Assembly (NCBI GenBank): GCA_903813345.2
Contig: CAIIXF020000006.1
Coordinates: forward strand, 14,948,348-15,012,347
Origin: Owenia fusiformis
Taxonomy: Eukaryota; Annelida; Polychaeta; Sabellida; Oweniidae
Reading direction: 5' to 3'
Length of the DNA: 64,000 nt
The translations under genes and the position numbers were made by a program. The notes below the pieces were generated by a model. That model was not told where the DNA came from, made no database searches, and saw only the letters and a list, made by a program, of their open reading frames with translations. Every line of letters starts with the position of its first letter. The stretch's first letter is position 1. Positions 3,312 to 64,000 of this stretch are shown here, piece by piece.

Positions 3312-3442
3312 AATATTGATCATAATCGAGTATGCCGCTCCTTCATTTCTCTTTTTAATTGTAATATTTCTCATGATGGGTTAAATACCTAATTTAATTT
3401 ATCAAATTTGGGGAATTTTAAACAGGGGGTTCGCACGAGGCT

Positions 3443-3660
3443 GTGGCTTGCTGTATTGACGTGAACACTGTGGCTTGCTCTATTGATGTGAACACCGTGG
3501 CTTCCTCTATTGATGTGAACACTGTGGCTTGCTCTATTGATGTGAACACCGTGGCTTCCTCTATTTATGTGAACACTGTGTCTTGCTATATTGTCACAAG
3601 CACTGTGGTTTGCTCTATTGATTTGAACACTATGGCTTGCTCTGTTGACATGAACAATGT
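3443..3660. repeat. 27-bp minisatellite
   Basis: About eight tandem copies of a 27-bp unit, roughly GCTTGCTCTATTGATGTGAA plus CACTGTG. The unit is a multiple of 3 and lacks stops, so one plus-strand frame reads as repeats of ACSIDVNTV. Copies diverge towards the right end. Confidence 0.85.
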
Positions 3661-3699
3661 GAAGATTTACAAGGGGAAGGATAAAAAGATCTAGCCATT

Positions 3700-6600
3700 A
3701 TTTGCTCTTGAACGAAACTCGGGAGGAAGAATATCATCAATTCACTCTCCAAATCTAGGTTTAATCAAAAAGCATCGCATGAAAATATCAAAGGATATTC
3801 ATGTCATGTGTTCAACCAATCATGGAAGAAGAAACATGACATTGAGGTAATGATGGGGAATATTGTATTGTTTGACATGGAATGTATTGTTTGACACATT
3901 CAAGACATAATCCATAATAAGACTAAAATGAAGGTTCTGTATTTAGGTTGATTTATTAGGTAAATTATACCAAACTGACATAATATTCATAACATAGAAT
4001 AGATGTTTGACATTGGTCTGTTTTATATGAATTGAATTTGAATTAAAAATACTACATAATACAATTAATGTACTGTAACTCAATTCATTGAATTTCAATT
4101 CAGTTGTTTAAAGGTATTGTAACTAAAAACACTAAGCTACTAACTTAATGGTGACAAAAAACACTTCCAAGAACTGCAGTGGATTAACAGACCTTTTTGG
4201 TGGTTTTAACAAAAACACTACATAACCCTTCAGATGTTGAAACTACAAAATTGAACTTTTCAAACATTGAAGGGTTAATACTAAAATATCGCAAGTCTAA
4301 AGGGTTCAAGCTGAACCATATAAAATAGAACAATGCCAAACTTGTATCTTCAACAACAGTGTTTTCATGATTCTTTCAGCAGTTCCTTAAGCAATAGTGT
4401 TTGCCTGATGTTGTTTGCATTACTACTCAATGCCTGTCTATACGAGAGTCCAGTCCCAAGATAGATGTCTGTTACAGTGTTAAATAGTTAAATAATAGCC
4501 CCTAGCTAAGAGTCCTACAGTCCATGGCTGCCAAAGTATTTTATGATAGTAGACGAAAACCTGGAAATAAGAATGTATAATTTGAGTCATAAAAATACAC
4601 TTTACACTTAATAAGTGTAAGGTATTCATATATATTCATATCTATAAGTCTTATGGTTATGAATAATTGTATATGCCATATGTGTATACTATATAGATAT
4701 ATGCCCATTGTGGTAAATGGTTCAAACAATATAGAAAGTTCAAAATGATTTATTTAGTTTAACTAGAGCTCTCTAACTAGTTATCAGAGGCTGAAGTTGA
4801 CTATTGTGAAAACTCTAATTGTGATAGATTTTCTGTCATACTTGCATCTATACAATCAAGCCACGATATAATGAGCTATTATTGTACATGTACAGGGAAA
4901 CTGCATGCATATTACTTTTGCAAATACCACAGAGAGAGAGGTACTATTCAAACATCATGGCTATTTCATGAAAACATATACTGAACTCAATTTATCTGCA
5001 AGGGTATTGTTTCCCTAGCTGCACACATGTAATTGACATCAACTCTATATATACATTAAAATTCATGATTGTGAATATTGATGTTCAAATACACTCATAA
5101 AAACTCCATGCTAAACTGTGCTTTACACATACATTCATGAAGTACATGTACTGTAAAACATGTTCATTTCTCTTGCATGTTATTTTCTCTAAAGTTTGCT
5201 AATTTTCTGATTCATGATTAACAAATTAGACAAGATTCAGAAATTGTGAATGCATTATGATGCATAAAAATGAAAAACTTTGAATTTGTAAAAATTACAT
5301 GCATGAATCAAATTCAACATGTTTCACGGTAACTTTTTACAATTTGCAATTCACTACATTACCACAAAACATTGTTTATTTATGTGAATACAGGCAAAAT
5401 AATAAAACAAGTCATGGTAAATTCAAGCAAAATGTAATTCCAGCCAAATTCTATGTACTTATGTATAATTGATTGTTAAATCTATGAAATAAACCTTTTG
5501 GTTAGAAATGCAATCAACTGGTCATGAGAAAGAGAAGTTTTTCATATTTTAGGTTTTCCTCTTTTTATACATCTCAAAAGCTCTCTTCTCTGTAACAGAC
5601 TTAACCTCAACAATCAACTTCATCATGAAATAGAAGTGTTGAGTTTTGAGGCATTCTCTATCATCAACCATTTTTTGTTTCTCCTTCAATTTCTTTAGAT
5701 ATAGGCTTAGACTGGCCTGGATATCTCATGACACAGTTCAAATATTGCAAACTTTGAAATAAAGTTAGAGAGATAAATCGTGCATTTGCTTGAATTTTAA
5801 GGCAAAATAATAGTGTTATTACTGTACATGCAATGCAACAAAATTCTGCCAAACACTATAAACTAAAAAAGAAAAAAGTAACAAATCCTCTATATAATTA
5901 AATTACAACATAGACCTCCATTTTCTACTCTCTTTTCAAATGATCCTAATTTTTTTCAAAATTTGTTCTTCTTGAAAAAAGGTAGTGAATTGTGGCAGTC
6001 TAAGTGTAAGAAGGTAGTATGGTGCAACATGTGCAATACAATGCTATATTTGGGGTTTTCTCAAATCTTTTTTGTCCATTGGACTAATAAATAATCAAAA
6101 ACATGTGAAAATATCTAGGATGTGTTGCACTCCAATGCTTCAGTGATGGGGAGGCCAGTGGTCATGACACGATACACTTCACTTCAAATGAAAAGTAGGC
6201 AAGTGTTAAACTGTATGTGCAATTTTACAGCATTTTGACATTTACTAAAATGAAAATTATGTAACTGGTCACCAATTTAAGACCCTCCTACCAAAAATGT
6301 TTTCTCTTTTCTAAAAATGTTATTTTTATCTTTCTTATCACATATTTCGAATATATACTTTTTCCGAAAATTCTGGTTCAATGACCAGAAACTGAACTAA
6401 CGAACCAGTCCTCACCTATCACATGCAGGTATTGAATAAACCACAACATCCTGGGGCTTATTATTCAAGTGTACATGTAGTTGAGTACAGAGTGATCATG
6501 TAAGGGGACATAATTTTTTCCAAGAAATATTCTGGGCCTAAACATTGAAGAAATGTGAAAGTATTTGGTAAAAGATTAGCTTCCTCCTAGATGTCAAAGT

Positions 6601-6750
6601 TCTCCCCCTGTTGTCAGAGATCAACATGCAGATAATGTCTGCAAAGAGTATATTAACGTGGATGCAATACAGTGGTATCAGTATACAACACAAACCATGC
6701 TGAGCTGTCACAGGACAGTGTAATACTGTCTGTTAAGTATAGGGGTCAGG
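3700..6750. other. Region downstream of TnT, no gene seen
   Basis: AT-rich sequence that probably includes the TnT 3' UTR near its right end. The nearest clear minus-strand AATAAA is at 5380-5375. The small frames here look random. Confidence 0.45.
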
Positions 6751-6755
6751 ATCAT

Positions 6756-6863
6756 ACCATGCTGTCATCAGCTGTAATACAGGTCAACACAACTATAGGC
6801 GGCAGTACCATGCCATGCAGTCATCAGCTGTAATACAGTCAGGTAACTATAGATGGCAGTACC
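6756..6863. repeat. Direct repeat next to the TnT stop codon
   Basis: Two copies, about 50 bp each, of a segment with CATGC(T/A)GTCATCAGCTGTAATACAG, then AACTATAG and GGCAGTACC. The second copy ends 1-2 bp before the TnT stop, so the repeat lies in the 3' UTR. Confidence 0.6.
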
Positions 6864-6864
6864 T

Positions 6865-7068
6865 TTACTCTGCTGCAACCTCCTCAGCTGCGGGCTCTTC
6901 TTCCTCCTCTTCATCATCGCTTGGGGCATTAAATACAGGCACAGGACCAGTTGGTGTTATTCTTTCTGTAACTGGTGCCCATGTGGGGCCCTTGAATTTA
7001 TCTTTTCTTTGATCGTATGATCTTTTATCTTTTTGGCGTTCATATTTGCTAAACATAACAACTTTTGG
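6865..7068 (-). CDS. TnT: TnT last exon with Glu-rich tail
   Basis: tttttag/CCAAAAG, phase 0, 204 nt ending in TAA at 6867-6865. Encodes PKVVMFSKYERQKDKRSYDQ, a PTWAPVTERITPTGPVPVF stretch and an acidic tail SDDEEEEEEPAAEEVAAE. Glu-rich C-terminal tails are known in protostome TnT and absent from vertebrate TnT. Confidence 0.92.
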   Translation of the reverse strand, partial: PKVVMFSKYERQKDKRSYDQRKDKFKGPTWAPVTERITPTGPVPVFNAPSDDEEEEEEPAAEEVAAE

Positions 7069-10000
7069 CTAAAAATGAGAAAATTATATTCTTTAGTTGT
7101 TTTTCACAAAAATGACAGTGGGTTGAGTTAGTAACACATGTTACATGCGGGTTTATCATTGGGAATTCCATTTTGGTCACCATCCACCCTAAAATACAAT
7201 AATATTAAACTTAGAACTGTAAATTCATGGAAAGTTTCAGTAAAGTTAATTCAACAAGGGACTAAAACACAAACCTGTTGTTATAACACACAAATCATGC
7301 CAAGGTCATGCTGGTTGGTTAGAAAACATCGCCATTTTTTCTCGAACTGATCTGCGGTCAACTTTTCTTTCATATTTGCTAGCCAGTTTCACCATAGGCT
7401 GGAATAAGATAAATCATGCTACACTCTGAACTATATATCTACGTTCTACACCCAATTAGTACAATAGAAGCATGTGAAAAGAATACAAAAAGATTAGTCA
7501 AATCTGGGTTTGAAAGGGAAATTATATTTCAGTCTATAGTGAGAAAATGTCATCATGGAAATAAGCATTTCTAGACAAATACATATACTATGCAGTATGT
7601 AATATTTGATAATTATTTAAGATTGGGTCAATCAGATAACAAATATTTATTATTCAGGTATTCATGGATAAGTTATGCAATTTATCAATAATATTATTAA
7701 TCACCTAGAAGCAATTATTTCATGCAATGCAGATACACTCTTATCAGTCATGCATATATGCAATTAATGTACCATTACAATAGAACATTTAATGGTTGTT
7801 TACAATAATATGTCACATCGACATCTTACACAACATAGGTTTTATTATTACTAAGACCTTTACAAAGGAAATGTCTGTTTAGCATTGCTTCCTGGGTTAT
7901 AACCTCATTGATCAAATATTTTTGTCAAAAAATTACTGCTAAACAGAATATTACACTACAGGAGGCTGATGATTACATAATACTGTATTTTATGAATATG
8001 ACAAAGTAAAAACTTACTGGTGCGCCTGGAATTTTGCTGGCGATCTCGTCGCTGCAATTGAATAGAAATATAACATCAAATAAAAATATAATATACAGGT
8101 CGATTAAGAGTTTCATAGTGCCAGTCACTTTATTAACAAATTGTACAGAGTCAGGTAGAAGCTTTGATTCTTTTATTAAAAGATAAAACTATGTATGATT
8201 CAACATGCCATAGTACACACTTGCTGCAATATTTTTTTTAGTTGGCATTTTGAATCTAAAATGACTGCTACTTTAATGCCTTGGTCACATTTGCTCCGAT
8301 TTTCACTACGGCGCCCGGCCGATTGAGTATTTTGTTCAAAATTGAATACAATATTGAACAAAACACTCAATCGACCGGGGGCCGGCCGATGGATCGGAGC
8401 GAATGTGACCCAGGCATTAATGTGTGTAAAATATGTTTTTTAAAACACTGTTTCATATTTGAGAGCAAAATGCTTTGAACAAATATGCCCCAAGATGATT
8501 CTCAACTCTTACTTTATTTTTGATTTCACAAATTCTAAAAATTAAACCGTTTAAAATGGTTTATATCATGAGTTTCATGCATTTATCAATGTATCATGTG
8601 ATATATTTCAATCTAGCTTATTGCTTTTGAGCTGAATTTACCATGTAACCATCATCATTTATTATTTCCCACTCAGCCATTCTATTAACAGCTGAAGTGT
8701 AAAATAATGGAGAGATCATGTTGAAAACTTGCTCTAAACAAACAGCCAATAATTTTAATGATATGAATATAAGTACCTTCCTGCGGTGCTGACACTAGAT
8801 ATTCAAGTAGAAAAAGTAGAAATTAAAATACAAGCTTAATAGTTCATAGCATTTTATAAATAGCAATAACAATAGGGAATGATGGGATGCAAATGAGCTT
8901 AAATTATTATATATGATAAAATAATTTGTCTACGGAAATTACGAGCAAAGAGCAAGATGACATTAGCCACTTTACTGATTAATAACGTATCTGCATAAAA
9001 TCCAGATTGAGTCTATGACTATCATTACGACAATGAGATAAACAATTGTTATCTAACGAGATAAGTGAATTTATTCAATCTCTGAGTATGACTTAATGAT
9101 TCATTGATTTTTCCAAATCAAATGTAACCGAGCATGCCAGATGGTTTATAGTATGATCTTATTCTTACTAATAACAATGGGTCTACAGACTACAAATCCA
9201 TTCTTAAGTCTCTTTATGATGGTTTGTCATGCTGGTGAAGGGGTAAGGGGTTGACTCAGAAGATTCACTCTAAATTCACACTTAGCATCAATCATGTGTA
9301 GAATTTAGTGTGAAATATACGAGTATGTGATGGCCCATGGGATCCTCATATATATAGTATATACAGAGAAATTATATCAATCTCATAATGCATTAAATAA
9401 AGATAAACCTGGACCTCTATATAAAATTCAACATTTTGTGACAGCAATGCATTATGGTATTAGTTAACCTCTCCTGTGATATACATGTATATGATGGATC
9501 GCGGGGGGCTGGAGACCTCTTCTCATGTAGGGATACAAGGAAGGTTGTTAACATGCAGTGTACTTGCACAATCATTATAATTCAAGAAAAAATGGGAGAA
9601 AGATGAAAAAATTATATAAAGTCCCTTGATTATATTTCCTTTGCAACATTGTTCCTTGACACCGAGCTCTAATAACCCATGTTTTCCATTCTGATTTATC
9701 AGAGTATCACTATATCTAATGCTTGAGAGGGAAGACACCAATACAGGCTGTAAATCTCACATTCCACGTTCTAAAATGTGATTATTTAATATATATAACT
9801 CATAAGACACTTTATGACTTAGGTTATGGAGAGAAGATACTATATCTGTATATCAATTTGGTCAAATGTATGTTCAAAAACAGATAAAATAACTTTATCT
9901 AGGCTGCTTAAATCAATAAACGTTTCATTTCTTATTGTAATTAATAGCCAGTATTGAATCTTTGATGTGATTATAGAGGTAAATAAAAGTAAAATATAAA

Positions 10001-13000
10001 TGAGCATAGACCAGGATTCAGTTGGTTAACCAACCAATTTCAACACATGTACTTTGTATGTATTACACAGTTTCATACTCAACAATGACATTAATATATT
10101 ATTAATATATTGATGTTTGATCATATTCATTCTGTTTCACAAGGTCATAACCACATTTGAAGCAGCGAAATGCAACATGTATATAGCATGTATATAGATT
10201 AATAGTAATCATTTGAATTGCATTTACTGTAGCCATTTTAACTCCTACATTGACTATTGACACAAAATTATGATATCAGATCAATCAACCTATCAATCAA
10301 TCAATTACATTTCTATTCAAATAAATTCTCCAAGATTGATTAATAAAATTAGTTATTCAACATGCCCTTTGTTCTTAGGTTATATTGACCTCGTATCTGT
10401 TTCACAATGACATAGGAAAAACATATCCATGACAAGAAAAAAGAACAACAATATTGACAAGATTTTCTCTTTTTTATTAAATCTATCCTTACTGGGCAAA
10501 CACTAAATTAATATGCATGTATTATTGACTAGTTATGTTGTCATCTGACTGACTGGACCATAATCTGTCTTTAGTAAAAGTTTTATGACATTGAATGTAA
10601 ATCAGAAAATACAATTTACATGTTTTTATAAATTAACATAAAACATCACGGAAACTTAATTTTTACAAGATGAAAATTGACAAGAAAAATCTTAGCTAAT
10701 AATATCTTTGATTTATTATCTGGCATGAAACTGGATAACATTCAATTTGCTTCATTCTGATCTTTCTGCTATTTTATTGTAGAAAACTGAATTTAAGAGA
10801 CTAAATAGAACATTATAGCTCCAATGATAAATGCATGGTGACTAGGTTGTCACATATATATTTGATTAGCTGCAAATAATAATCACCGATTTGTTTTACG
10901 GAGTGGATAAAACATCAAGTTTATGATGTGTAAGGCTTATCCCGGAGTTGCAGTACATACTTTATTGCTTTATTATTCTATACCTGCTGGAACTAAGTGA
11001 ATTTATGAAACCGTTAATAAAGAATCAAATCATAAAATAGGAAATAAGTCGAAAATAATAAGGAGCATATTTGTACAAACATTAGTCCAATAAACATAAT
11101 CAATATTAAACACTGACAAATAAATGTACAATACAAACTCTGTAATTGTGTAAAAAATAATAATTCCAAAATTACTTATTTTATTCCTATCTAACAATTC
11201 AAAATGAGCAAACTGACAGTCAAGCAGAAATTATTAAAAAATATTTCATAGAATTTATTTGAAATATAATATATTGAAATTCTATGTCTACGAAAAAGTC
11301 AATAAAACAAATGGAATGGATGTTATAAAACAAATGGAATGGATGTTTAGATAGCAGGTACTCTACTCTGACTGACAGCTATTCATTTTATTTGTATAGA
11401 CCAGAAATAATATTTTTTATACATGTTAGCAATCTGAATGATTTCCAATATAAAAACATTTACATTACATGCACTTTGCTATAGTTCAAGACTTGGAAAT
11501 CAATTAGGTTAAGAATAGGGGCAAATGGAACATCTCAAAATTCTATTGGTACCATTTAATTAAGTTATTTTTGAGATTATCCCTTGCTTTGACAAATAAA
11601 CATTGAAATTCTTTATAAAGTATTTTTACACCATAACAAACACTGAGATTCATTTCTGTAAAGTTGTCCAAAAAAAGAGAAAAACAAGGGAAACCAAAGC
11701 AACATGTCAACATGAGATAAAGCTAACTAAATGCTTATCTCAATTCTAAAGCTGTCAACTAACAAACACTGAAGAATCAGACAGGACACATGTTAATAAA
11801 GCTGAGCCATTTCATGCTCAAACAATGATATGGCATAGGGCAACAATAAAAGCAACAAGAAATAGTATTTCCAAAACTAAAATGAGAATTTTGGACTTGG
11901 TGTCTGAAACTGTAAACATCAGGACCCTAAGATAGCCATCTATTGACAAACAGAGACTGCATGAATAATTGCAAATTAATTTATAAAACTATGTAACACA
12001 TATTAAACCAAACATCTAAGGCTTTCAGACTAGTAATGAAGTAATGAAGCAATTTTATTTTTGAATAATCAGCATAGAAAAGGTATGATATGGGTGTTCC
12101 CAATAGAGAGCAGTCAAAGCATTTACCCATCCTTTCAAGACTAAGATGTAATGTTAAAAAGCACCATCTTTTGAATAAACTCATTTTATTTTGCCTCGAG
12201 GAATCTGAACAAAACCAAATACATTGCTTTACATGATGACATAACATGCAAACAATATCTCCGACAATGCAATAGGAGAAATAGGCTTAAAATCCCATAA
12301 TGCAACGGGACTTGCAGACTGAAATTATCCATAATGCAATGACTTGTGACAAAGGGGTCTTGGGACCATCATGCATCATGCTAACTTACGTCTCTGTGAC
12401 TCTGTGGGCTTTGCCTTTTCTGAAGACAGCAAAACAAATGCAATAAAATATCATAAATACCCTAATTTTACAATAAATGGCACTTCAACCAGAGAAGCAT
12501 GAAGAAAATTGTTTGAAGCCAATTGAAAATGTTGAAACCTTCTTGAAATGTTACCTTACCTACAACAGAAAACACAGCACTCAAGAAGATAAATTTGGCA
12601 ACAAATAATATAACATGCACAATGTTTACTGTGAAAGAGTCGTCCGACCAGATCAAAACATCTACAGCCTTGATACCTACATTTGGTCTTCAAAGCATTC
12701 TTCAAGATTGTGAAAATTCAAACATCCAGTAAATTGGAGAATATATATCCCTATTCTCCATGCTTGAAGTACTTGTGGCAAGGGGGATTGGAGAAACCAT
12801 TACTTATGCTTATAAAAGGGATGTACACAAAAAGCACAGACTTGATGGATGTATCTATTGGAAAGAACCTATGCAATAAAACAGACATTTCCATTTCAGC
12901 ATTTTTCCAACTTGACAAGCACATAGAGCAAATATAGTAGCATCATGTCTTACATTATGAACTTATGGATTCTGTGTGCAATCATAATAAGTTAAGGCCA

Positions 13001-16000
13001 CAAAAAAATATGATCAGGATTATATAAAGTCCATAAACATTGAGCATGATATGGAACATTTCAGCAAGTGTAGGTAAATATAGTGACAAGTGTTTTGTAA
13101 TTCATTTTTGATGAGTACCCTAAGAACCTTTGATCCACAAAGATCACAGATCACATAAAGATCGATAAGGATCACATAAATTGTGACTAGATTGCACTTC
13201 AACGCATATCAGCGTGTGAGCAGCCACAAGTTCAGACATGATGCTAAAGATCGGAATCAGGAGCAAGACAATCTACTTAAAAGCTAATAGAGTGGACAAG
13301 ACAATTCCAAGAAATACAGAAATACGAGACAATGCTACAAACGTCTGGGTGTCCTATACTCTTACCATCCTTCATGAACATCCCTCTTGCTAAAATTGTA
13401 ATATTTGCGATTAAAACATGCACATTTAATTTATTTCTTTTACAAAAGTTTTGTGTTTCGACTTACACTACATCATCGTCGTATCCCCCTCCACTTCGTC
13501 TGTCACGACTGAAAACAAAGTAACCATAACAACCATGCCATCATGCTATATCACTTATTTTCATGCAAATTATATACTACTACATATACACTTATATGTA
13601 TAATGCACTTTTTGAATTTAAATAATTCTTATTACACATAATAAATTAAATGTTTTTTGTATTAATTTGTCTTAACTACAGAAAGGGATTGTTTTCTCAA
13701 TTTGATACAGAATCTTATGTGGTAAGAATGGACTATGTCCAAGTATCTTCAGTTGTGGAAAAACACTTATTTTTAACCCCCCCCCTAAATCTTATGATTT
13801 GATTTATCCCCAAAAATAAAATTTAAAAAATGAGATCTTTTACCCAATTCTTTCTCCTGATCATATTTCACAGGGAAAGTCAGAAGGTATAAGCATCAAA
13901 AGTTCAAATAAAATGTTTTTAGCACTTCGATTCCTGGTATTGCAAAATAAAAATGGTGTAACTTTTTCTCCCTTTCACGTATAAAATAGGCTATTACTTA
14001 ACCCTATAGGCCTAGTACTTTTTCTACAACTGTTGACATTTCACAACATTCTCTTTTAATTAAACAACTAAATCAAATATATAAAGAGGCCCAAATGTGC
14101 CAATCATTGAGAGGTCTTGACTTAAGATGGCTCAATGTGACTAACTCTTTATCCAGAGCCTTACAAAGGCTACATTTGAAACTACTGATTTTTGATTTTT
14201 TTTAGAAAACTACTGGAGATGAAAATATATCAGCACATGTTTATATAACTTACCCTCCCTTGTTCATCTGTCTTGCACGTTCAGCTAGCTCCATCATCTA
14301 AAACAGTTATATTACTCATTTATTTTTTACTAAGGTTCATGTACATCCATAAACTGGTACATGTATATAACAGATTTTGGCAGAACTCATGAATAAATCA
14401 ACGTAGAAAGTACATTATTTGATTTGGTAAAGAGTAAGTATACAATGATTTTTGAAGTGTATCAAATCATTATGTTATTCAAAGATAATTTTCATATCAA
14501 GGCCACATATAAAATATGTTCAAGGAACATCAGAAAAAGCACAAATATTCAAGATTAAATACATGTTCAAGAGTTTTCTGCAGATCATGTAGACTAATAT
14601 ACTTACGTCATACTGCTGTCTCTTGAAACGCTCTTCCAGATCGTACTTCTCAGACTCAAGTTTGTAGATTTGGTTGTAAAGATCCTTGGCCTTCTCAGTG
14701 AGTTGGTCACTTGAGAATCCATCAATGTTCAGAGCATGGATACGCTGTGTAAGGATTGCCTTCTTTTCTTCCTCAAGCTGTTCCTTGGACTTGGTCATGT
14801 CTTCCTTGGCCTTAACAACATTGCCAACCTAGAAAAACAAATCATGCTTATAGCTGAAGCTCAGAGATAGTAAGATTTTATGTTGAATACATTATATTGT
14901 TATTTATTACTTTATACTGTATATGTTGCTGTAAAATGATATTAATAAACAACAATGAATATCACATCCTTAAGTTGTACATTATAGTGCTGGCAAACAA
15001 CTGATCAGGTCTATCAAGTCTAAAGAAGTATCCCTCAAAATTCTCTGTACTAGCTAGCCATTCTAATAACTTACTGGTGTAGAGTATTCAATATGGCCAC
15101 CCAATATAACTCATTTAGACTTTCATACTAAGAAGAATTCCTGAAAATTTGAGCCGACTACAATTGAACGACAAAGGATGCCATAAAAGTCAATGTTGAA
15201 TGAAATGCTGAGTAAAATTTGTAGATTTTAAAAGATATGCTAAGCATATTGTTGGATGATATTCTGAATATGTATGATGCTATGCATTAAATGATATCGA
15301 TTTTGTATGGGAGTCAGTACTCTGGTACTCTGATATTATGGTAGTCAGCCTGCAAAGTACATATTTACTTTCCAAATGAGGACATCGTCAACAGCAATAC
15401 AAGCTATGTAGCAATAGTCACTCGTTTTGCCATGTGTTATGCAACAAAGGCACATTTTCCACACACGCAAAATCTCTGAAAGGTCAAAACAATAATAGAC
15501 ATGAACAAGCAACGCCATTAATTATGCTGAACAATCCCACGCGCCAAAATCACTCTGCGACTGCTAGATCTGGTGGCGTAAAGTCTACTATAGATGCAGC
15601 ATGTGTGGAAAGTATGACGAACAAAAAATGTAAATATATAAAATATTACATTTGCTCAAGGAGGATTGGCTCCCTGAGTGCAACATCGATAATCTGTCCC
15701 ATATATGGGCATGTTGTGATACAAAATTCGATTCCAAACAGCCGCCATTTTGTTCACTTCAACATTTGAATCATGAATTTTGGTTTTATTTCCTAACGAA
15801 ACATTCCAAACTCACAAGAAATGATCGCGATTTTGGTTCGAATCTTTTGAAGTGTTAATTTGAATTTATAGTCGGTTATTTTTCAGAAAATAACGATATT
15901 TCAACGTTTTCATTGTTGGAAAATATAGAATTTCGATCCTGGGAGCCAATCCTTGACATTTGCTTCAATGCATATTTTTGATTAATCTTTATTGCAATAT

Positions 16001-39401: not shown

Positions 39402-42400
39402 CTGGAATATCACATGGTATATTCATTAAGGATCAGCTCATTCAAAGAAAGTGGAAATATTACTTAAAGGCTCATATCATGAATAATATCAATTTAAAGG
39501 GCTTAATCAAGAATATTGAGATGTAATAAATCCTGGTAAATAAAATTTAAAATGTTCATACATGAAAATTATTCCTGCTGTTCGTATGTTACAAGGTTAT
39601 CAACTAGATGGCCTTTCACAATACTCATTAATGCCTCATTAATGCTATATGGAACTTGAAATTGCTGTTACTAAATAGAAAATGTTCAATACTCACTTCA
39701 ATTCTGTCTTGTTGACCTTCTTGAGCATGGGCTTGATGCTGGAAAATAAATGAATGCATAAATATAACATTGTAAAAGGAAACAGAAAAGGAAATACATG
39801 TGGTAGTATACAGTAAAACCTGTGTATACTGAACATTTTTTTGCCAAGAAAAAACAAAGGGTAATTTATACAGAAGTCAGTGGAATATGTGTGGGGAAGG
39901 GTATCCACTAGGGACATGTGTTCACTAGAGAGAGGTTTCATTAAGACAGGTTTTACTGTAAATAAAACTAAAATAAACCTAAAACCTAAAATTGGAAATT
40001 ATATCTGACAGCAGCGTAAATCACATGGTCTAGGGAGAACAATAAAAATTCCTTTTTAAGTACAATTGAAATCAATGGATATATTAAGTTTCTGAGTGTA
40101 ACGAATAGAATCTTTCCCAATTGTTCAATTTCAAAAGATCCCCATGAGCTAGGAATACACATCTAGCAATATTGAAAACCTGTCTGATCCAAAGCCACTG
40201 GAACCAGCCAAGTGTTTGGATTGACAGGTGTTCACATTGAAAGATTCAAAAGTTGTCCCCAAAAAACCATTCACAATGAGAGGTGCTCAGATTAGAGAGG
40301 TGTTCTGATATACAAGTTTTACTGTACTTCAAAATAACTCATTAGACTCTGAATATACCGTAATGTGAAAGATTAAAATTCATATTTTCTCCAGTTTAGC
40401 ATACTTACAATTTTCCCTTGACTTCATATGTTTTGTTTGTTAGTTCATTCAACTGAAAAGAAAAACAATCATTAGAAAATCATTAAACTTCTTTAATGTT
40501 TTGTAACATTTCAACATAACATGAGCTTTCCCTATGTGTTTTCCCATCAAACCTCTTCAGACCATACAAAATATTAAAATGTCAACTAAATTCTGCAAGT
40601 AATACTTTAAATGGGTGTGTTTGAGTGCATGTGACCTGTTCATTAATTTTGCAATTGAGAGGGAATATTTTTTGAAAGAGAAAATTCACCATCCGAGATT
40701 AAATTGGATTAACATTGGGAAAATTTTCAAAAAGAGGGAGTTTAATATAATGAAGTTTGACAAAGATAAAGAAGCTCTCAAATCTTGATGCCAGGAGTCT
40801 CTGAGAGAATGTCTCTTTTTCTGAATTTCATGCTTCAAAACAAAAGATTATGCTTACTTCAGTTTCTCCTTTCCTGACTTTCATTTCTAGATCATATTTT
40901 TCCTCTTCAAGGGCAGCATACTTTTGTTGGAGTTCCTTGCATTTCTTCTGTAGTCCAGCTGCAAGTGAATTAGGAATACATTTAGTGTTTAAATATGGGG
41001 AACCCTGCCCATTGGCAAACACACTGCCCAACGTTTATCATTCAACCAATTAGAAAAGAGCACTGCAGTCACACTAGGCGAATGGAATTGTGACTTTGGT
41101 CCTAATCATATTACTCTTTTATATACATGTACAGTATTGTATTAAAGATAAGGAGATACTGTATATAACTGACACCCTGTACACACCTTGGTCAAGTCCG
41201 GCCAGGTCCAGTGTGCCTGCCCTCTTCTTGATGGTATCCCCTCTTTCTTTCATCTTCTTCTCTTGTTCTTCCCTGAGGGCCTGGGCAGCCTTCTGCATGA
41301 TCAGCTCCTTCAACTTCTTCTTCTTCTCTGGGGACAAGCCCCCCAAACCTCCCCTCTTCTTTGGCTTCTGTAACAGTAGGAAACATCCATTGTATAATGA
41401 TTATCAAAACAAGAATAGTATGATTTGGTTGTACATTTGGCTCCAGGGCATTAGTACAAATAAATCATACAATTAACATTGCATATGAGTAGTATTCACA
41501 TTTCGTTTTGGTTGCTATTCTCTATAATTACATGTTTTAAATGCATTTAGTGAATGATATATAAAGAAAAAATAGTATGTAGATAATAATACCGCAGATA
41601 AGGTATATGACTATATGTGCATAAAATTCTCAATGAATATACATGCAATGTATAATATACATATATTATTCTATTTATCAACATATTTCACACACTCAAA
41701 GTTTGCTCACACATCTTACTCTCTCACATTCTGCTCAAAACCATTACAGCCAACCTTTTATAACATCATTACATTTATGTATTGAAAATATCAATCTGAT
41801 GATACCTAAAATTGATATATGAGAATGGATTTTCAAGATAGCCCATGATGATATTCAAATGTATGCCTGTATATCCCTAAGTTTCTGGCAGGCATGATAA
41901 TGTCAAGTTTCCTTGATAATCATGAGTAAAACCATGCAAAAACTGTTTATTCCTTTCAGTTTGGAGTATAATCATATATAAATGGGAGGAGACTTTGAAT
42001 TTTCGGGAGTTTTTAAGACCATATGGAAATGGCCTGACAACTGAATTTATGGCACTTATATGAGCACTTGATGATATCTTACCTGTCATTGTAATTCTAC
42101 ATGTAGTAACCATGCAAAGTAATAGCAAGCACCTTTGGAGTTTGGATTGGTTGCCATAGAAACCATCATCAGCCATGACAACAGGATAACACACAGCTAA
42201 GTTGTATTATGTGTAGTACATTAATATTGACTTGTAACCAAAAAGGAACTTCTTCCATTAAATAATTGTTAAATAAACTGAAGGAAAAGCTTGGTTACCA
42301 AGGCAACTGCTTCAGTAAATTTACCAGATGGCAAGCGCTGTTGATGTTAACCTAATATAAGGCAGGAAAATGCATTCAGACAGCTAAAGAAAAACATAGT

Positions 42401-52598: not shown

Positions 52599-55500
52599 CT
52601 ACAACAAAAGATGGGAAATTAGTATAAAGTTTCACAACCATATCATATTGAACATAAGAGATATATATGAAAAGATCATCGCAAAAGCTTGAACTTTATG
52701 TATATAGGAATTATAATATGACTTATTGCTCAATGTCCTTATAAATATGAGTGAATTACTAACTCATAAATTATCTCTGAGGTCTGAATGGAGATTCATT
52801 GTACAGTGTATATCAAAGTATATCTTTGTACGTATTACCAAAATATTGATATATAAAATAGAATGAAGAAATACCTTGTCCTCTTCCTCAACTGCATATT
52901 TGCTCTGTCCCGTTGATTTTAGTGCATCACGGAAACCAGATTTTTTCACATTCATTTTCTTTTCAAACTTAGCTAATCTGCAATGGAAATTGATAATTGA
53001 TTGATTGATCATGAACTTCTATTTTACAAATATTAAATCTAATTCTAATGATAACTTGATAGCTATTGGTTTTTATTGAAAATATTATTATTGAAAAGTA
53101 AAATTAGTGATTTATTTAAGTACTTACTTGCTTTCTGTTTTTGATACTTTTTTCAACACAGGTTTCACGCTAAAAATAATAAAGCACAAAATTCAATCTT
53201 TTGACTGCATGGAAATAAATTCAGTTTAAAATGATTTAAGAATCATAAATATACAACTATTAAATCTACGAAATACTAAATAAAATTATACTTACAATTT
53301 ACCCTTTATATCATTGACTTTTATGGTAAGTTCATTAATCTCAAAGTCTTGCTTGCGTATCTTAACTTCCCAATCATATTTTTCTTCTTCGAGTCCAACT
53401 AACTTTGCATGCAGTTCCTTCACCTTGGCTTCCAGTTGGGCTGCAACAGGAACAAAAAAGATTCATGTGGTGTGTCATGGATATAGGGCTGTCATGACTT
53501 ACAAAGATAAAAACAAATAAATTCAGCAAACTCCTTATTTGTCAAGATCTCATAAAAGTTAAGTTGATACACCACTTGATGATCCTTATTGTATTATGAT
53601 AACTGATCCACTGTACATCAAAATGCCAAAGAGAAAGAAAATGAACAAAAAACATGCTTGATTTGTTCTGTTGTTGGTTAGGTAACAGTGATGTTTAGAT
53701 TTAGTTTAGTTTGGTTTAGTTGTTGATGGGACAATATGTGACTGACTGTATCATAGACTAACTAACTGACTGGCTCTATCATGCTTGGAGTCTCTTCAAA
53801 TATCATCTGTGATCAAGCTAAAAAGAAACTACATTTCTAAATAACATAAACAAGCATTCAAACATAAGTTTTCAGTGCATGCTAAATGATAATACAAAAG
53901 TATGAGTGGATAAAGTTCACATTCCGGTTAATTCTGAAGAGAATTTTGAGAGAAGTTGCATACCATGTGCATGTGCTATAAAACCACGTGCTCTTGTATA
54001 TGTATATAAATATCAGAATATGAAAATAAAGTTATTATTTAAAAAAAATATGATTTAAATAAATAATAAAAAACAAAAATGTCAAACAAGAAAGACAATG
54101 CAAAGCTGAATGCATCGAATAATATTTGAATGATTTTTTCCATTTAACATGCACTTTAACTTACACTGAGTAAAGCCATCAAGGTTGAGATCTCCCATAA
54201 GGTCTTTAATGATTCTATCTCGCTCTTTAGCTTTTAGAGTAGCTTCCTGTCTCAATGCTTCAGAAGCTTTTTGCATTATGAGTTGCTATACAAATAAAAT
54301 ATAATATAAATGGCTATTTCTAAATTGGGACATGAATATTGATGGTTAATATAGTCATGTTAGTGTTAACATCACACTCAACAAGGCAGAACATAACATT
54401 TACTATACACAAAGATTCAATTCTGTCCATTGATCTGCTCTATCACCTACTGAAAATCAATGGAAAAATGGCCCTTATTTTGACATGCTCCGGGATCTCA
54501 TTTCATAATCCCATCTAAAACAAGGACACACATCTCTTAGCTACAATCTATTGAAAGTGTTAGTTTGTATTATTGTCCAATAATTGAGGAGTCTCTCAGT
54601 ACATAGGTGCAGAAGATGTATCAGGTTGTGGGTGATTAAGTTCCTATATGTTCATAGAGCTGTGATGTTGTAGAACTCTATAGGGTCCAACAATGTAACA
54701 TTATTTCCATAACAAAATCAAACTTTTCTGAGTTGGCAATGATTTCCCATTGTGGTCTCCTACAGAGTTATTCAGCATCACAACTTTGCATTATTGATGA
54801 CTAACAATACAATACATCTTCTGCCCATGACTTGGAGTTAGTTTGCCACTTAGATCTTACCCTGGGTGTTTCCCTCAAGATCTAACCTTCCCATACGTTG
54901 TTCTAAGATTTGTTTCTTTTCATTGGCGCGTTCAACTTCCTCCTGTTTGAGGTCATCTAGAGCACGCTCCATGATTAGTTTCTGCAATGTCACAATGCAT
55001 TCATTCATGCAAGGCATTCACTTGTGTAAATTGAAAAACATGCTATTTAATAATAGTCAGTTGATTTAGTAAGTAATAATAAATAATAAATTATACAAGT
55101 GACTAGTTTTAAAAACAAGTTACGTTAAACAAGACTACGGGTTGAATAAATGCAAAACACTGTTATAATCCATAAATGTGAATCTTGTCTGGAACAATCT
55201 TTGAATTCGTCAGTTTTAAAAATCTGTTAGTAACAAAGGTAGCAAACCTTATGATTGACTGTACTAAACTGTGTATGATATGTTACATGCCATAACATTA
55301 GATTTTCTCGCATACAGACTCATCATGCAATTAGCATAAATTAATATTACATGAAACATGTAATAAATATTCACGTTTGCAAAAGTAACAAGCTGACATT
55401 TGAAAATACAAGATTAAATTATCAGTATGTTAAAAAATCAATAACTAACTTTAATTTATACAAATGTACATGACTTTTTACAAATCAATTAAATGTGACC

Positions 55501-61500: not shown

Positions 61501-63600
61501 GTAGATGGTGACCATATTTTATAATTGAGCACAAAGTCAAGATAGGAAAATAAGAAAAATTAGTCAGAATGAAGTAAAGAGAGTATTATAACAGTGAATA
61601 TACATAAATCCATTGCTGTTACTATGGAAATAGTGATGTCATGGTCAAAGGACAATAGACTTATGAATTCATGGATTTATGAATGCTAACAGAAATGCAC
61701 CCCAGATAAATAACAAATTGTATAGAAATGGAGAGTACATACATTAATTCATATTTTACAAAAAGTATTGAAACAATGACCATCGCTGTCATTTTCTCAC
61801 ACATGGAGCCCTGCATATGGAAGATAGAAATACACTTCAAATCGGGGATTTAGTAAATGTGGGTTCACAGCAATCTGAGTGAATAAAACACAAGGGAAAC
61901 TGTAGAGTGAATACAACTTCCAACAGCTATGTGCAGTTAAAATGTATGCAATATAAACTAGAATTCCTTCATAATATTCACCTTATGAACAAATGTTTCA
62001 AAACAAGGTAGACAACATACTGTAAGCTCCAACTCACATTTGCATATAAGGAGATATTAATTAGAAGGAATGTCGTATGTCACATTGCAAACATTAGAAC
62101 TGTCCAAACCTATTGATCCATCTTCCTCTTAGTCTTATTATAATGTCAGCTCTTCTTTTATAGAATATAATAATAATATGACATACCTGTCTGCGTCTCT
62201 CAGCCTCAGCTTCTTCGGCTTCCTGTTGTTTACGAGCCTCTTCCTCAGCTTCTTCCTGTTCCTTGCGACGCTGTTCCTGGAAATTAACAATAGATGGAGT
62301 TACAAACAATTCAAGATGGCTGACCTAGTTTCATGTGCTCCACCAAAATGCAGTAGTTGCTATCTTGTCTTCCAATCTTCACGTTTACTAGAAGTCGAAG
62401 CAAATCCTTAACTGACAGTACTGAAAAAGGAATGATCATTCCAAATCAGACTTCATATATGTACAATTTTGTATAATAAGTGATCTTAAAAATATTAACA
62501 AAAAAATTAAATGGTGACGAGTTGACTGAAGGTTGGTTATGAAGGTTCTATGTACAGTCTAATAATATTCTGATATCTACATTTTATCATTCTATAAATC
62601 AAATTTTACATGTATTTATATAAGGTTTTTACATTCAGTGCAAATGTTGCATCGTGCACATCTTAAATCAAATGTGTCTTAACAATATGTGCTTTTTAAT
62701 TATAAGAGTAATATGGGTACAATGAATGTCTATGACAATTTCTCTAATGATAATCTATATCTTATAGTATAACAAAGAGTGTGATTTATACTCGTATAGT
62801 AAAATGAATTTATGATATACAACAAAATGAGAAATGATTTCTTATCTAAGAAAAAAATATCACACAGCACACCTTAGTAAATAAATATGGGTAGTTATGG
62901 GATGGCGGTGGGATGCACCTTAAGATGGCAAATGATTCACAGTAAAAACCAAAGTAGCTGGTATACATGCAACTGAAAGCCAATTAAAGCATTCAATTAT
63001 CCCGTTCATTTTAGGAAATACCTCAATGTTAATCTAGGAACACTTGTTATAGAGACCATATATGTAGTCTATAGTGTTATTACCATGTAATGTTGAATGA
63101 ACAGTCTAATTGAATCAGAACCATTAATCACTATGATTTCTGTTTGTATAACAATATTTTAGATATCTAGGTTTGTTTGTCTTAGATATCTTACAGTCTA
63201 TTGCGAAGCAGGGTGATACTATATTTAAAATTGCTACCACCCATCAAAAGGACTGAAAAAAATTCAAAGAATTCTGAGCTATGTCTAATGTGACTTTTTC
63301 ATGATTAACTTATACGACAAATATACTGGTAGATTCAATATACATGTATATAAGAAGTGTAAAAATTCAATGCAGAATGAAAAACCACCTAAGGTTACAG
63401 AATGGTTGGTCTATAAAGTGGTAGCAGTTTTAAGTATAAAGCGCAGAAAAATCACAATTAATCAATATTTGGCACAATTTTGAACGCATCATTTAGTGCT
63501 GATCTGTAACACTTGGTGGAGCTACCTCCGCTCTTTGACGTTCAGCCTCTCTTTGACGTTCTGCTTCAGCTTCAGCCTCAGCTTCCCGTTGTCTCTCTTC
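52518..63600 (-). CDS. TnI: Long troponin I gene with charged N-terminal extension (5' end outside window)
   Basis: Inhibitory subunit of troponin. Exons seen: 63600-63526, 62276-62187, 60557-60477, 59482-59417, 55824-55720, then one of 54981-54861 or 54285-54165, then 53440-53296, 53169-53128, 52977-52875, 52598-52518 (TGA). The joined part is 909 nt (302 aa plus stop) in one frame. It starts with about 104 residues of E/R/K/Q/A helix, then AKRAADEEAKKKKR, GLGGLSPEKKK, a TnT/TnC-binding helix, the IT-arm (LEEEKYDWEVKIRKQDFEINELTIKVND), the inhibitory KGKFVKPVLKKVSKTESK, the switch/mobile part (LAKFEKKMNVKKSGFRDALK) and an acidic end (DDDAIEAES). Mollusc-type troponin I is known to have a long N-terminal extension and a length near 300 aa, which fits. 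The start codon is not in the window. Regulation by mutually exclusive exons is inferred from the equal-length homologous pair. Confidence 0.94.
52875..52977 (-). CDS. TnI: Long TnI switch/mobile-domain exon (103 nt)
   Basis: attgcag/ATTAG...GACAAG/gtattt, phase 2 to 0. Encodes KLAKFEKKMNVKKSGFRDAL and KSTGQSKYAVEEEDK, covering the TnC switch helix and the actin-binding mobile part. Confidence 0.94.
53128..53169 (-). CDS. TnI: Long TnI inhibitory-region exon (42 nt)
   Basis: tttttag/CGTGA...AGCAA/gtaagt, phase 2-2. Encodes FVKPVLKKVSKTES, the protostome-type inhibitory peptide. Confidence 0.95.
53296..53440 (-). CDS. TnI: Long TnI IT-arm exon (145 nt)
   Basis: gttgcag/CCCAA...AAATT/gtaagt, phase 1 to 2. 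Encodes QLEAKVKELHAKLVGLEEEK, YDWEVKIRKQDFEINELTIK and VNDIKGK, the coiled coil that pairs with TnT. Confidence 0.96.
54165..54285 (-). CDS. TnI: Long TnI alternative helix exon B (121 nt)
   Basis: gtatag/CAACTC...CTCAGT/gtaagt, phase 0 to 1. Encodes QLIMQKASEALRQEATLKAK to LMGDLNLDGFTQ. It is closer to the short TnI exon (about 21 of 40) than to exon A. Including both A and B would also shift the frame (242 nt is not a multiple of 3), so use must be exclusive. Confidence 0.9.
54861..54981 (-). CDS. TnI: Long TnI alternative helix exon A (121 nt)
   Basis: attgcag/AAACT...CCCAGG/gtaaga, phase 0 to 1. Encodes 40 residues, KLIMERALDDLKQEEVERAN to RMGRLDLEGNTQ. Same length and phases as exon B at 54285-54165; about 17 of 40 residues match by eye. 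Confidence 0.9.
55720..55824 (-). CDS. TnI: Long TnI exon with GLSPEKKK motif (105 nt)
   Basis: ttttacag/GCCAAA...CTCAAA/gtgagt, phase 0-0. Encodes AKRAADEEAKKKKRAPGTKR and KGLGGLSPEKKKLLK. The end aligns with codons 5-20 of short TnI exon 2. Confidence 0.94.
57165..57225. repeat. Hairpin repeat
   Basis: ATTGTCCCC...CTCCGTA...TACGGAG...GGGGACAAT inverted repeat in a TnI intron. Similar phrases (TTCTGTGTTGCTA) also occur near 57000, suggesting a larger degraded element from about 57.0 kb. Confidence 0.5.
57378..57389 (-). CDS. TnI: Candidate 12-nt TnI microexon
   Basis: tttctgtttcaatacttag/GGTGGAAACCAG/gtatgt in the 3.6-kb intron before the AKRAADE exon. It keeps phase 0-0 and would add Gly-Gly-Asn-Gln. 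Splice signals only. Confidence 0.28.
57460..57560. repeat. Degenerate ATATTGCC tandem repeat
   Basis: At least six diverged copies of (G/A)(A/T)GATATTGCCT with spacing near 14-28 bp. Confidence 0.5.
58461..58600. repeat. Two direct copies about 100 bp apart
   Basis: TCTTCTGCTACAA(C/A)TAATGC followed by ATTATGGG occurs at about 58461 and 58560. Confidence 0.55.
59417..59482 (-). CDS. TnI: Long TnI N-extension exon d (66 nt)
   Basis: attgtag/GAAGAAG...GATGAG/gtgagt, phase 0-0. Encodes EEEEQRRREEEEERERQKKK then DE. Confidence 0.88.
60477..60557 (-). CDS. TnI: Long TnI N-extension exon c (81 nt)
   Basis: atggcag/GAGGA...AAGAGA/gtaagt, phase 0-0. Encodes EDAEAAEEEERAHKREEERA and KREAAKR. Confidence 0.88.
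60600..62186 (-). other. TnI intron, nothing seen
   Basis: Intron between N-extension exons b and c. AT-rich, with a G-run near 60.62 kb. No further exon found. Confidence 0.45.
62187..62276 (-). CDS. TnI: Long TnI N-extension exon b (90 nt)
   Basis: tttccag/GAACAG...AGACAG/gtatgt, phase 0-0. Encodes EQRRKEQEEAEEEARKQQEA and EEAEAERRRQ. Confidence 0.88.
63526..63600 (-). CDS. TnI: Long TnI N-extension exon a (75 nt)
   Basis: taaacag/GAAGAG...GCGGAG/gtagct, phase 0-0. Encodes EERQREAEAEAEAERQREAE plus RQRAE. The donor gtagct is weak; the frame stays open 12 codons past it, then stops. Confidence 0.75.
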
Positions 63601-63619
63601 CTGTTTAAACATTACAGTA

Positions 63620-64000
63620 CATGACAACATAAACAGGCATTCAACATACAGTAGGTATACAGGTACATTGATAATATTGAAACACACTGACAGGGGATTG
63701 GACAAAATTTAGATCCCATATACTGCTTGGAAACAACAAATCAGACACAATGTTGCTTGTGAGCAATAGATACCCTATTAAGGTAGATCTAAAATAAGTA
63801 ATATGGGTTTTACAGGCCCAAAGTTGTCCGCCTTTGCCTTCCTTAAATTAGAATGTACATAATGACTACACACTTTGTAACTTACGAAGGAAGGAGTCAA
63901 CAATGGACACTGCTTTACAAACATTTGTAGAACCATTATGCATCCATCAACTAAAATTTTCCAGACATTGTTCACAAATATCTTCAATAGTGTTATCACT
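63620..64000 (-). other. TnI intron or unresolved 5' region
   Basis: A possible 24-nt phase-0 exon (gcag/TGTCC...CCTTC/gtaagt, near 63885-63908) would read CPLLTPSF, but it is unlike the rest of the extension. No start codon of the gene is visible. Confidence 0.25.

Follow-up and report, generated by a model that had tools for sequence, protein, structure and literature searches.

Does the troponin T (TnT) gene of the annelid Owenia fusiformis choose between two ways of ending its protein, and if so, what is the tail that one of these endings would add? The question is raised by two adjacent exons on the minus strand of a 64,000-nucleotide stretch of the genome (assembly GCA_903813345.2, contig CAIIXF020000006.1, positions 14,948,348 to 15,012,347), referred to here as the window. 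A preliminary description of this DNA took them for a tandem exon duplication that lets the muscle produce or omit an acidic tail. Our analysis favors, as the probable joint reading, a TnT gene with a duplicated SKYER exon whose upstream copy acts as a stop-carrying cassette, governs the choice between a tailed and a short end, and thereby controls a tail resembling the annelid lumbricins.

The identity of the gene is clear from its core, in which two exons match PF00992 (E 1.4e-13; 51.7 bits against a cut-off of 26.2). Searching the PDB with the TnT core placed cardiac and skeletal TnT chains at the top of the list, from E 4.3e-16, with TnT chains ranking above TnI. In the 498-Mb genome, the coiled-coil core exon (Table 1) found its own locus as the sole match at E<=1, and by this search the TnT gene is single-copy. 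Three small candidate cassette exons lie between the core and the C-terminal switch, at 13508-12390 on the minus strand; joining the 24-nt to the 30-nt exon creates an in-frame stop, which excludes the two from one functional mRNA. Two nested inverted repeats, with arms of 31 nt (90%) and 36 nt (89% complementary), occupy 8270-8423 in the intron 5′ of exon 8051-8018 and look like a small mobile element.

Table 1. Features of the TnT gene, with positions in the window (ranks are among minus-strand sites of the window; a slash marks the splice point).
Feature	Position	Strand	Basis
TnT core exon, coiled-coil region	14607..14828	-	PF00992 and PDB TnT matches
TnT exon ending in phase 2 (..ARQMNKGG)	14254..14297	-	donor gg/gtaagt in top 0.2%; acceptor poor, top 56%
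Candidate cassette exon, 42 nt, phase 2/2, RDRRSGGGYDDDVV	13467..13508	-	splice-site scores and open frame (predicted)
Candidate cassette exon, 24 nt, phase 2/2, KRDVHEG	13366..13389	-	good donor; poor acceptor, top 54% (predicted)
Candidate cassette exon, 30 nt, phase 2/2, KGKAHRVTET	12390..12419	-	acceptor in top 0.9%, donor in top 1.6% (predicted)
TnT exon preceding the switch, DEIASKIPGAP, ends in phase 0 before GTAAGT	8018..8051	-	frame and splice sites
Short alternative C-terminal coding segment, PMVKLASKYERKVDRRSVREKMAMFSNQPA then stop, net charge about +5	7306..7398	-	acceptor in top 3.1%; homology; constraint
Possible remainder of the short exon, 31 nt from stop to donor CAG/GTTTGT	7275..7305	-	donor score 1.7 (putative)
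Tailed alternative C-terminal segment, PKVVMFSKYERQKDKRSYDQRKDKFKGPTWAPVTERITPTGPVPVFNAPSDDEEEEEEPAAEEVAAE then stop, net charge about -5	6865..7068	-	lumbricin homologue with SKYER motif, Pro-rich stretch and acidic end
AATAAA, candidate shared poly(A) signal	5375..5380	-	first AATAAA past the tail stop (about 1.5 kb), followed by T/G-rich DNA

Other observations concern the surroundings of the gene. Upstream of TnT, two troponin I-like core exons matching PF00992 lie 12 kb apart on the minus strand (40855-40995 and 53295-53441) and could represent alternatives within a single TnI gene or two genes beside TnT; what looks by eye like the end of a TnI frame lies at about 40450-39370. Glu/Arg/Ala-rich open frames at 62097-62324 and 63496-63708 on the same strand (e.g. 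EQRRKEQEEAEEEARKQQEAEEAEAERRRQ) could represent a long N-terminal TnI extension. The open frame at 3389-3697 (minus strand) is built from a repeated HINRxSHxVHIN unit. Elsewhere in the genome, PF16915, the annelid haemoglobin linker domain, has three matches that exceed the cut-off; they fall within 15 kb on C6, at about 27.03-27.05 Mb, and one has an internal stop. The PDB matches of the best of these loci (L001 of L001, L002 and L003) are weak, with a best E of 0.0015, and all five distinct sequences at E<=1 are linker chains. The linker matches agree with an annelid; a genome search for hemerythrin, in which split genes can escape notice, gave no match, and the assembly yielded none for COX1.

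The exon boundaries proposed in the preliminary description, 7398-7306 and 7068-6865, proved right throughout, and both exons continue exon 8051-8018 in phase 0, from the acceptors ttattccag/ and catttttag/, respectively. Each translation begins with P, contains SKYERxxDxRS and runs to a stop of its own. The short end has 30 residues, is basic and closes with SNQPA. The long end has 67 residues and carries a charge of about +6 over its first 36, and its last 31 (about -11) form an acidic C-terminal extension of the kind seen in protostome TnT.

The exon peptides align without gaps from residue 1, with 11 of 25 residues identical and a BLOSUM62 score of 53, a value that none of 20,000 shuffles reached (maximum 47). 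Of the window's 1,105 open segments of 30 or more amino acids, scored against residues 1-30 of the tail exon, the short exon ranked first after the tail exon itself (53; next 40). Chance resemblance of the two C-terminal exons is ruled out by the shuffles and by this ranking. Genome-wide, a query made of the tail and the preceding exon recovered its own locus plus one chance-level match (E 0.885), and the short exon recovered its own locus only. The copies are thus adjacent, homologous and in the same phase, as is expected of mutually exclusive duplicate exons. Neither C-terminal end matched the PDB at E<=10 or Pfam, nor did the tail exon match NCBIfam; a scan of genome-contig and viral-contig collections for relatives returned none, as expected for an animal gene.

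A duplicated exon could also be a dead one, with the upstream copy an unused relic and the tailed TnT alone being made. The two exons share 40 of 75 nucleotides, and the relic explanation can point to the fact that only the 11 residues have been retained. We mutated the tail exon in 20,000 simulated neutral copies at the same nucleotide identity, along one branch only and with the window base composition, so that the result is a rough guide. The 30-codon frame stayed open by drift in 9.8% of runs, which a relic would also allow, whereas the retained residues averaged 5.1 of 25 and reached at least 11 with P=0.00035, far short of the observed identity. The excess over the neutral mean suggests that the short copy has been kept at the protein level. 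Moreover, the retained residues include SKYER-D-RS, common to the tail exon and detected by a lumbricin profile (below), and the acceptor at 7398 is good. We consider a relic quite improbable; the tandem duplication itself is well supported by the alignment, the shuffles, the window ranking and the simulation.

How the two copies would be used depends on the splice sites around them, which were scored with a hand-written consensus matrix and ranked against all minus-strand AG or GT sites in the window. The acceptor of the short exon ranks ahead of the weaker acceptor at 7068 (top 10.5%). Within the short coding segment, the GT at 7393 scores -0.2 and would add two residues only, and the rest score below -7. 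A protein carrying both SKYER segments was considered and rejected, since no donor above 0 precedes the stop of the short exon and the segments are not easily joined; with that in-frame stop, the sequence predicts that the copies are never both coding in one mRNA.

Past the stop, the donor at 7275 belongs to the top 3.4% of 3,654 GT sites and is of moderate quality, with T at +3. Two further GT sites, 7181 (1.9) and 7188 (1.0), score near it and lie 118-125 nt past the short stop; 7275 is favored on account of its CAG and the G at +5. Nonsense-mediated decay depends on the distance of the last junction behind the stop. Use of 7181 or 7188 would place that junction 118-125 nt past the stop, and decay would be expected, whereas a last junction 31 nt past the stop should let the mRNA escape. 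Splicing at 7275 places the second copy in the 3′UTR, so that, strictly, the short exon would be a stop-carrying cassette.

The preliminary description treated the two copies as separate last exons, and held that the lack of a usable polyadenylation site after the short exon would refute the switch. The 237 nt between the exons (7305-7069) contain neither AATAAA nor ATTAAA. This absence weakens the idea of two separate last exons, yet it leaves the switch standing because donor 7275 offers a cassette instead. The arrangement in which the short exon is a genuine alternative last exon, polyadenylated at a site of its own within 7305-7069, would accord with its separate stop, with its better-scoring acceptor and with the variant hexamers GATAAA (7157), ACTAAA (7097) and AATATA (7090); two of these three, however, start no more than 30 nt from the next exon, and with the standard signals missing we regard this arrangement as unlikely. 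The first AATAAA beyond the tail exon is preceded by variant hexamers nearer that exon, e.g. AATATA 6654, GATAAA 6330 and AGTAAA 6246.

Two motifs resembling binding sites occur near the short exon, in tiny counts drawn from six motif classes and five regions: TGCATG (2 against 0.6 expected) and ACTAAY (2 against 0.4) in the intron 8017-7399, and ACTAAY (1 against 0.2) in 7305-7069. An Rfam search of 5000-15000 at gathering scores gave no match.

Under the cassette reading, splicing of 8018 to 7398 would yield a TnT with a short, basic, tail-less end, after which donor 7275 would join 7068. Skipping of 7398, with 8018 joined to 7068, would yield the longer end, with its Pro-rich segment and acidic tail. 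The last exon and the 3′UTR would be common to both mRNAs, as would a poly(A) signal further downstream, for which the AATAAA at 5380 is a candidate. The frames and splice sites permit both ends, in agreement with the tailed/tail-less switch first proposed; the joining of 8018 to each is drawn from the sequence. By analogy with proposals for the Glu-rich tail of insect TnT, the acidic end probably modulates the activation of thin filaments or the handling of calcium.

Fly TnT has a SKYER-type segment at the same place. An acidic C-terminal extension is known from arthropod TnT, and a function has been proposed for the Glu-rich insect tail (PMC7581897, PMC13322953), deletion of which is reported to impair muscle (PMC7581897). 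Insects likewise have a single TnT gene, in which exons close to the C-terminus are mutually exclusive and muscle-specific; there, however, the choice falls at exon 10 of an 11-exon gene, and the available text of that source describes no tail-removing duplicate exon (PMC13322953). In Owenia, the duplicated exon itself holds the stop and would decide whether the tail is produced. Vertebrate TNNT3 also has a pair of alternative exons under developmental regulation close to the 3′ end, exons 16/17, which unlike the Owenia pair are internal and followed by the constitutive exon 18, according to the accessible part of PMC2447309. In scallops, striated and catch muscle differ in their troponin isoforms, whose ends are not described in the portion available (PMC5963113).

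The nature of the tail came from a literature text search with the letters of its motif, which led to papers printing lumbricins and to no troponin paper. The preliminary description had missed this relationship. By sequence comparison, the tailed exon is homologous to the annelid lumbricins. We used the printed protein strings of lumbricin I of Lumbricus rubellus (PMC11477351), lumbricin-PG (PG) and the leech LBrHM1, 11, 13 and 14 (Appendix A of PMC12295236), some of which are off by one residue from their stated length. In six-frame searches of the 498-Mb genome, the TnT tail exon was the sole match at E<=10 both for lumbricin I (E 6.6e-6; 48% over 42 aa, taking in six precursor residues and the acceptor TAG) and for LBrHM14 (E 7.6e-6; 61% over 36 aa); these searches scored the best candidates only, and the short exon itself was absent from their results, which means that they could overlook a lumbricin gene elsewhere if its sequence has diverged. 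A profile of the six lumbricins, run against 2,102 window segments, retrieved the tail exon at E 1.5e-13 and the short exon at 4.5e-4, with the next segment at 1.1.

The similarity goes beyond the SKYER motif, since it persists past KDKR: with the sequence through KDKR removed, shuffles scored as well against the tail exon in 0, 37, 0, 1, 2 and 0 of 2,000 cases for lumbricin I, PG, LBrHM1, 11, 13 and 14, respectively. In the comparison with the short exon, the score of each of five lumbricins was equalled by only 0 to 3 of 2,000 shuffles, but lumbricin-PG did no better than shuffles (231 of 2,000). Lumbricin I and the leech lumbricins carry FSKYERQKDKR or close variants, then GP, ERI and P at matching places, and LBrHM14 reads MFSKYERQKDKRSY, identical to the corresponding stretch of the tail exon. 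Of the 14 invariant positions of the six lumbricins (S2, Y4, R6, D9, R11, G22, P23, Q24, F25, P28, P34, K36, W40 and P46), the tail exon keeps eight, S2, Y4, R6, D9, R11, G22, P23 and P34, and for this reason we term it a lumbricin homologue and not a lumbricin. The proline pattern P-X4-P-X5-P-X11-P reported for the family (PMC12295236) does not hold in the tail exon, where P23 and P34 are kept, P27 stands in place of P28 and D is at 46. The poly-Glu end is without counterpart in the aligned lumbricins. Three lumbricins searched against Pfam gave a single match at E<=1, a sub-threshold one (E 0.15), and NCBIfam gave one chance-level match for lumbricin I (E 0.36).

The Owenia tail shares with lumbricin I, lumbricin-PG and Hm-lumbricin a start like that of LBrHM14, followed by GP and ERI-x-P, and from its F it runs for 62 aa, a length similar to that of mature lumbricin I. 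Lumbricins differ in being described as stand-alone proline-rich antimicrobial peptides (PMC6780910, PMC11678341, in the text available), whereas the Owenia segment is the last exon of a TnT and is acidic in its distal part. Given this homology, the exon choice would decide whether a muscle protein bears a lumbricin-like C-terminus.

Are the lumbricins of other annelids, then, products of their TnT genes, or do they come from genes of their own? On the first view, the tail would be cleaved off before FSKYER or made from a short last-exon transcript, and in Owenia the duplicated stop exon would decide its presence. This is possible, although we hold it on balance doubtful. One line of evidence comes from the leech nerve cord, where an Edman-sequenced lumbricin begins FSKYERQKDKRSYGERFS.. 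and has m/z 6443 (PMC3081291, Table 2; the text and table available disagree over its peak number). For LBrHM14 lacking the initial Met, the average mass comes to 6443.2 and MH+ to 6444.2, within about 1 Da of the measured value. The fit places the N-terminus of the leech peptide at the F that follows the Met, a Met also present in the tail exon. Removal of a Met that precedes Phe is not expected of methionine aminopeptidase, which points to cleavage from a longer protein.

LBrHM1 provides another line. It reads ..RSQ-AKIEMYSKYER, to be compared with PKVVMFSKYER directly after the acceptor in the tail exon, and its Gln aligns with the acceptor CAG, an acceptor assumed from the Gln of the printed protein. 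The LBrHM1 residues that precede this point, a unique N-terminal fragment reported to be active on agar (PMC12295236), may therefore be translated intron, and the N-terminal extension of LBrHM1 may be a read-through of the intron before a TnT-type exon.

The second view gives earthworms and leeches separate short genes, which would have arisen by copying of the TnT tail exon and then taken on a role as inducible peptides with antimicrobial and neurotrophic action, the TnT exon being unrelated to immunity. In the available text, Hm-lumbricin is rapidly induced by bacteria and lumbricin-1 and lumbricin-PG carry a signal peptide (PMC6780910), and five lumbricin homologues are reported from the leech genome (PMC12295236); the 14 starting residues of the lumbricin I precursor are unlike TnT. 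Set against this, the 498-Mb Owenia genome holds no lumbricin-like match outside TnT, at the limited search depth given above, and the LBrHM1 frame continues upstream across what could be a CAG acceptor, at the position corresponding to the start of the tail exon. We give this explanation about an even chance: the induction, the signal peptides, the non-TnT start of the precursor and the five homologues make separate, TnT-seeded genes at least as likely in leeches and earthworms. Among lumbricins, the signal peptide is confined to the two named, and antimicrobial activity is relatively low, as far as the source available goes (PMC6780910); the homologues other than LBrHM1 are reported as inactive in a bacterial test (PMC12295236). 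Low activity and the rarity of signal peptides suit either view.

In the open-access literature searched, which leaves most subscription papers outside, no paper was found that joins lumbricin with troponin, and the text available there yielded no description of alternative C-terminal TnT ends; both the lumbricin-TnT link and the C-terminal switch are likely new to the literature. If the switch is real, choosing one exon over the other changes the TnT end from basic to acidic and tailed, which provides a natural experiment on the function of the protostome TnT tail. Lumbricin has reportedly been described since 1998 as a stand-alone antimicrobial and nerve-repair factor. Should the link hold for annelids, an antimicrobial family used in studies of immunity and nerve repair would need re-reading, as lumbricin expression and antibody studies may have tracked TnT or its copies, and a sarcomere protein would join the known sources of cryptic antimicrobial peptides.
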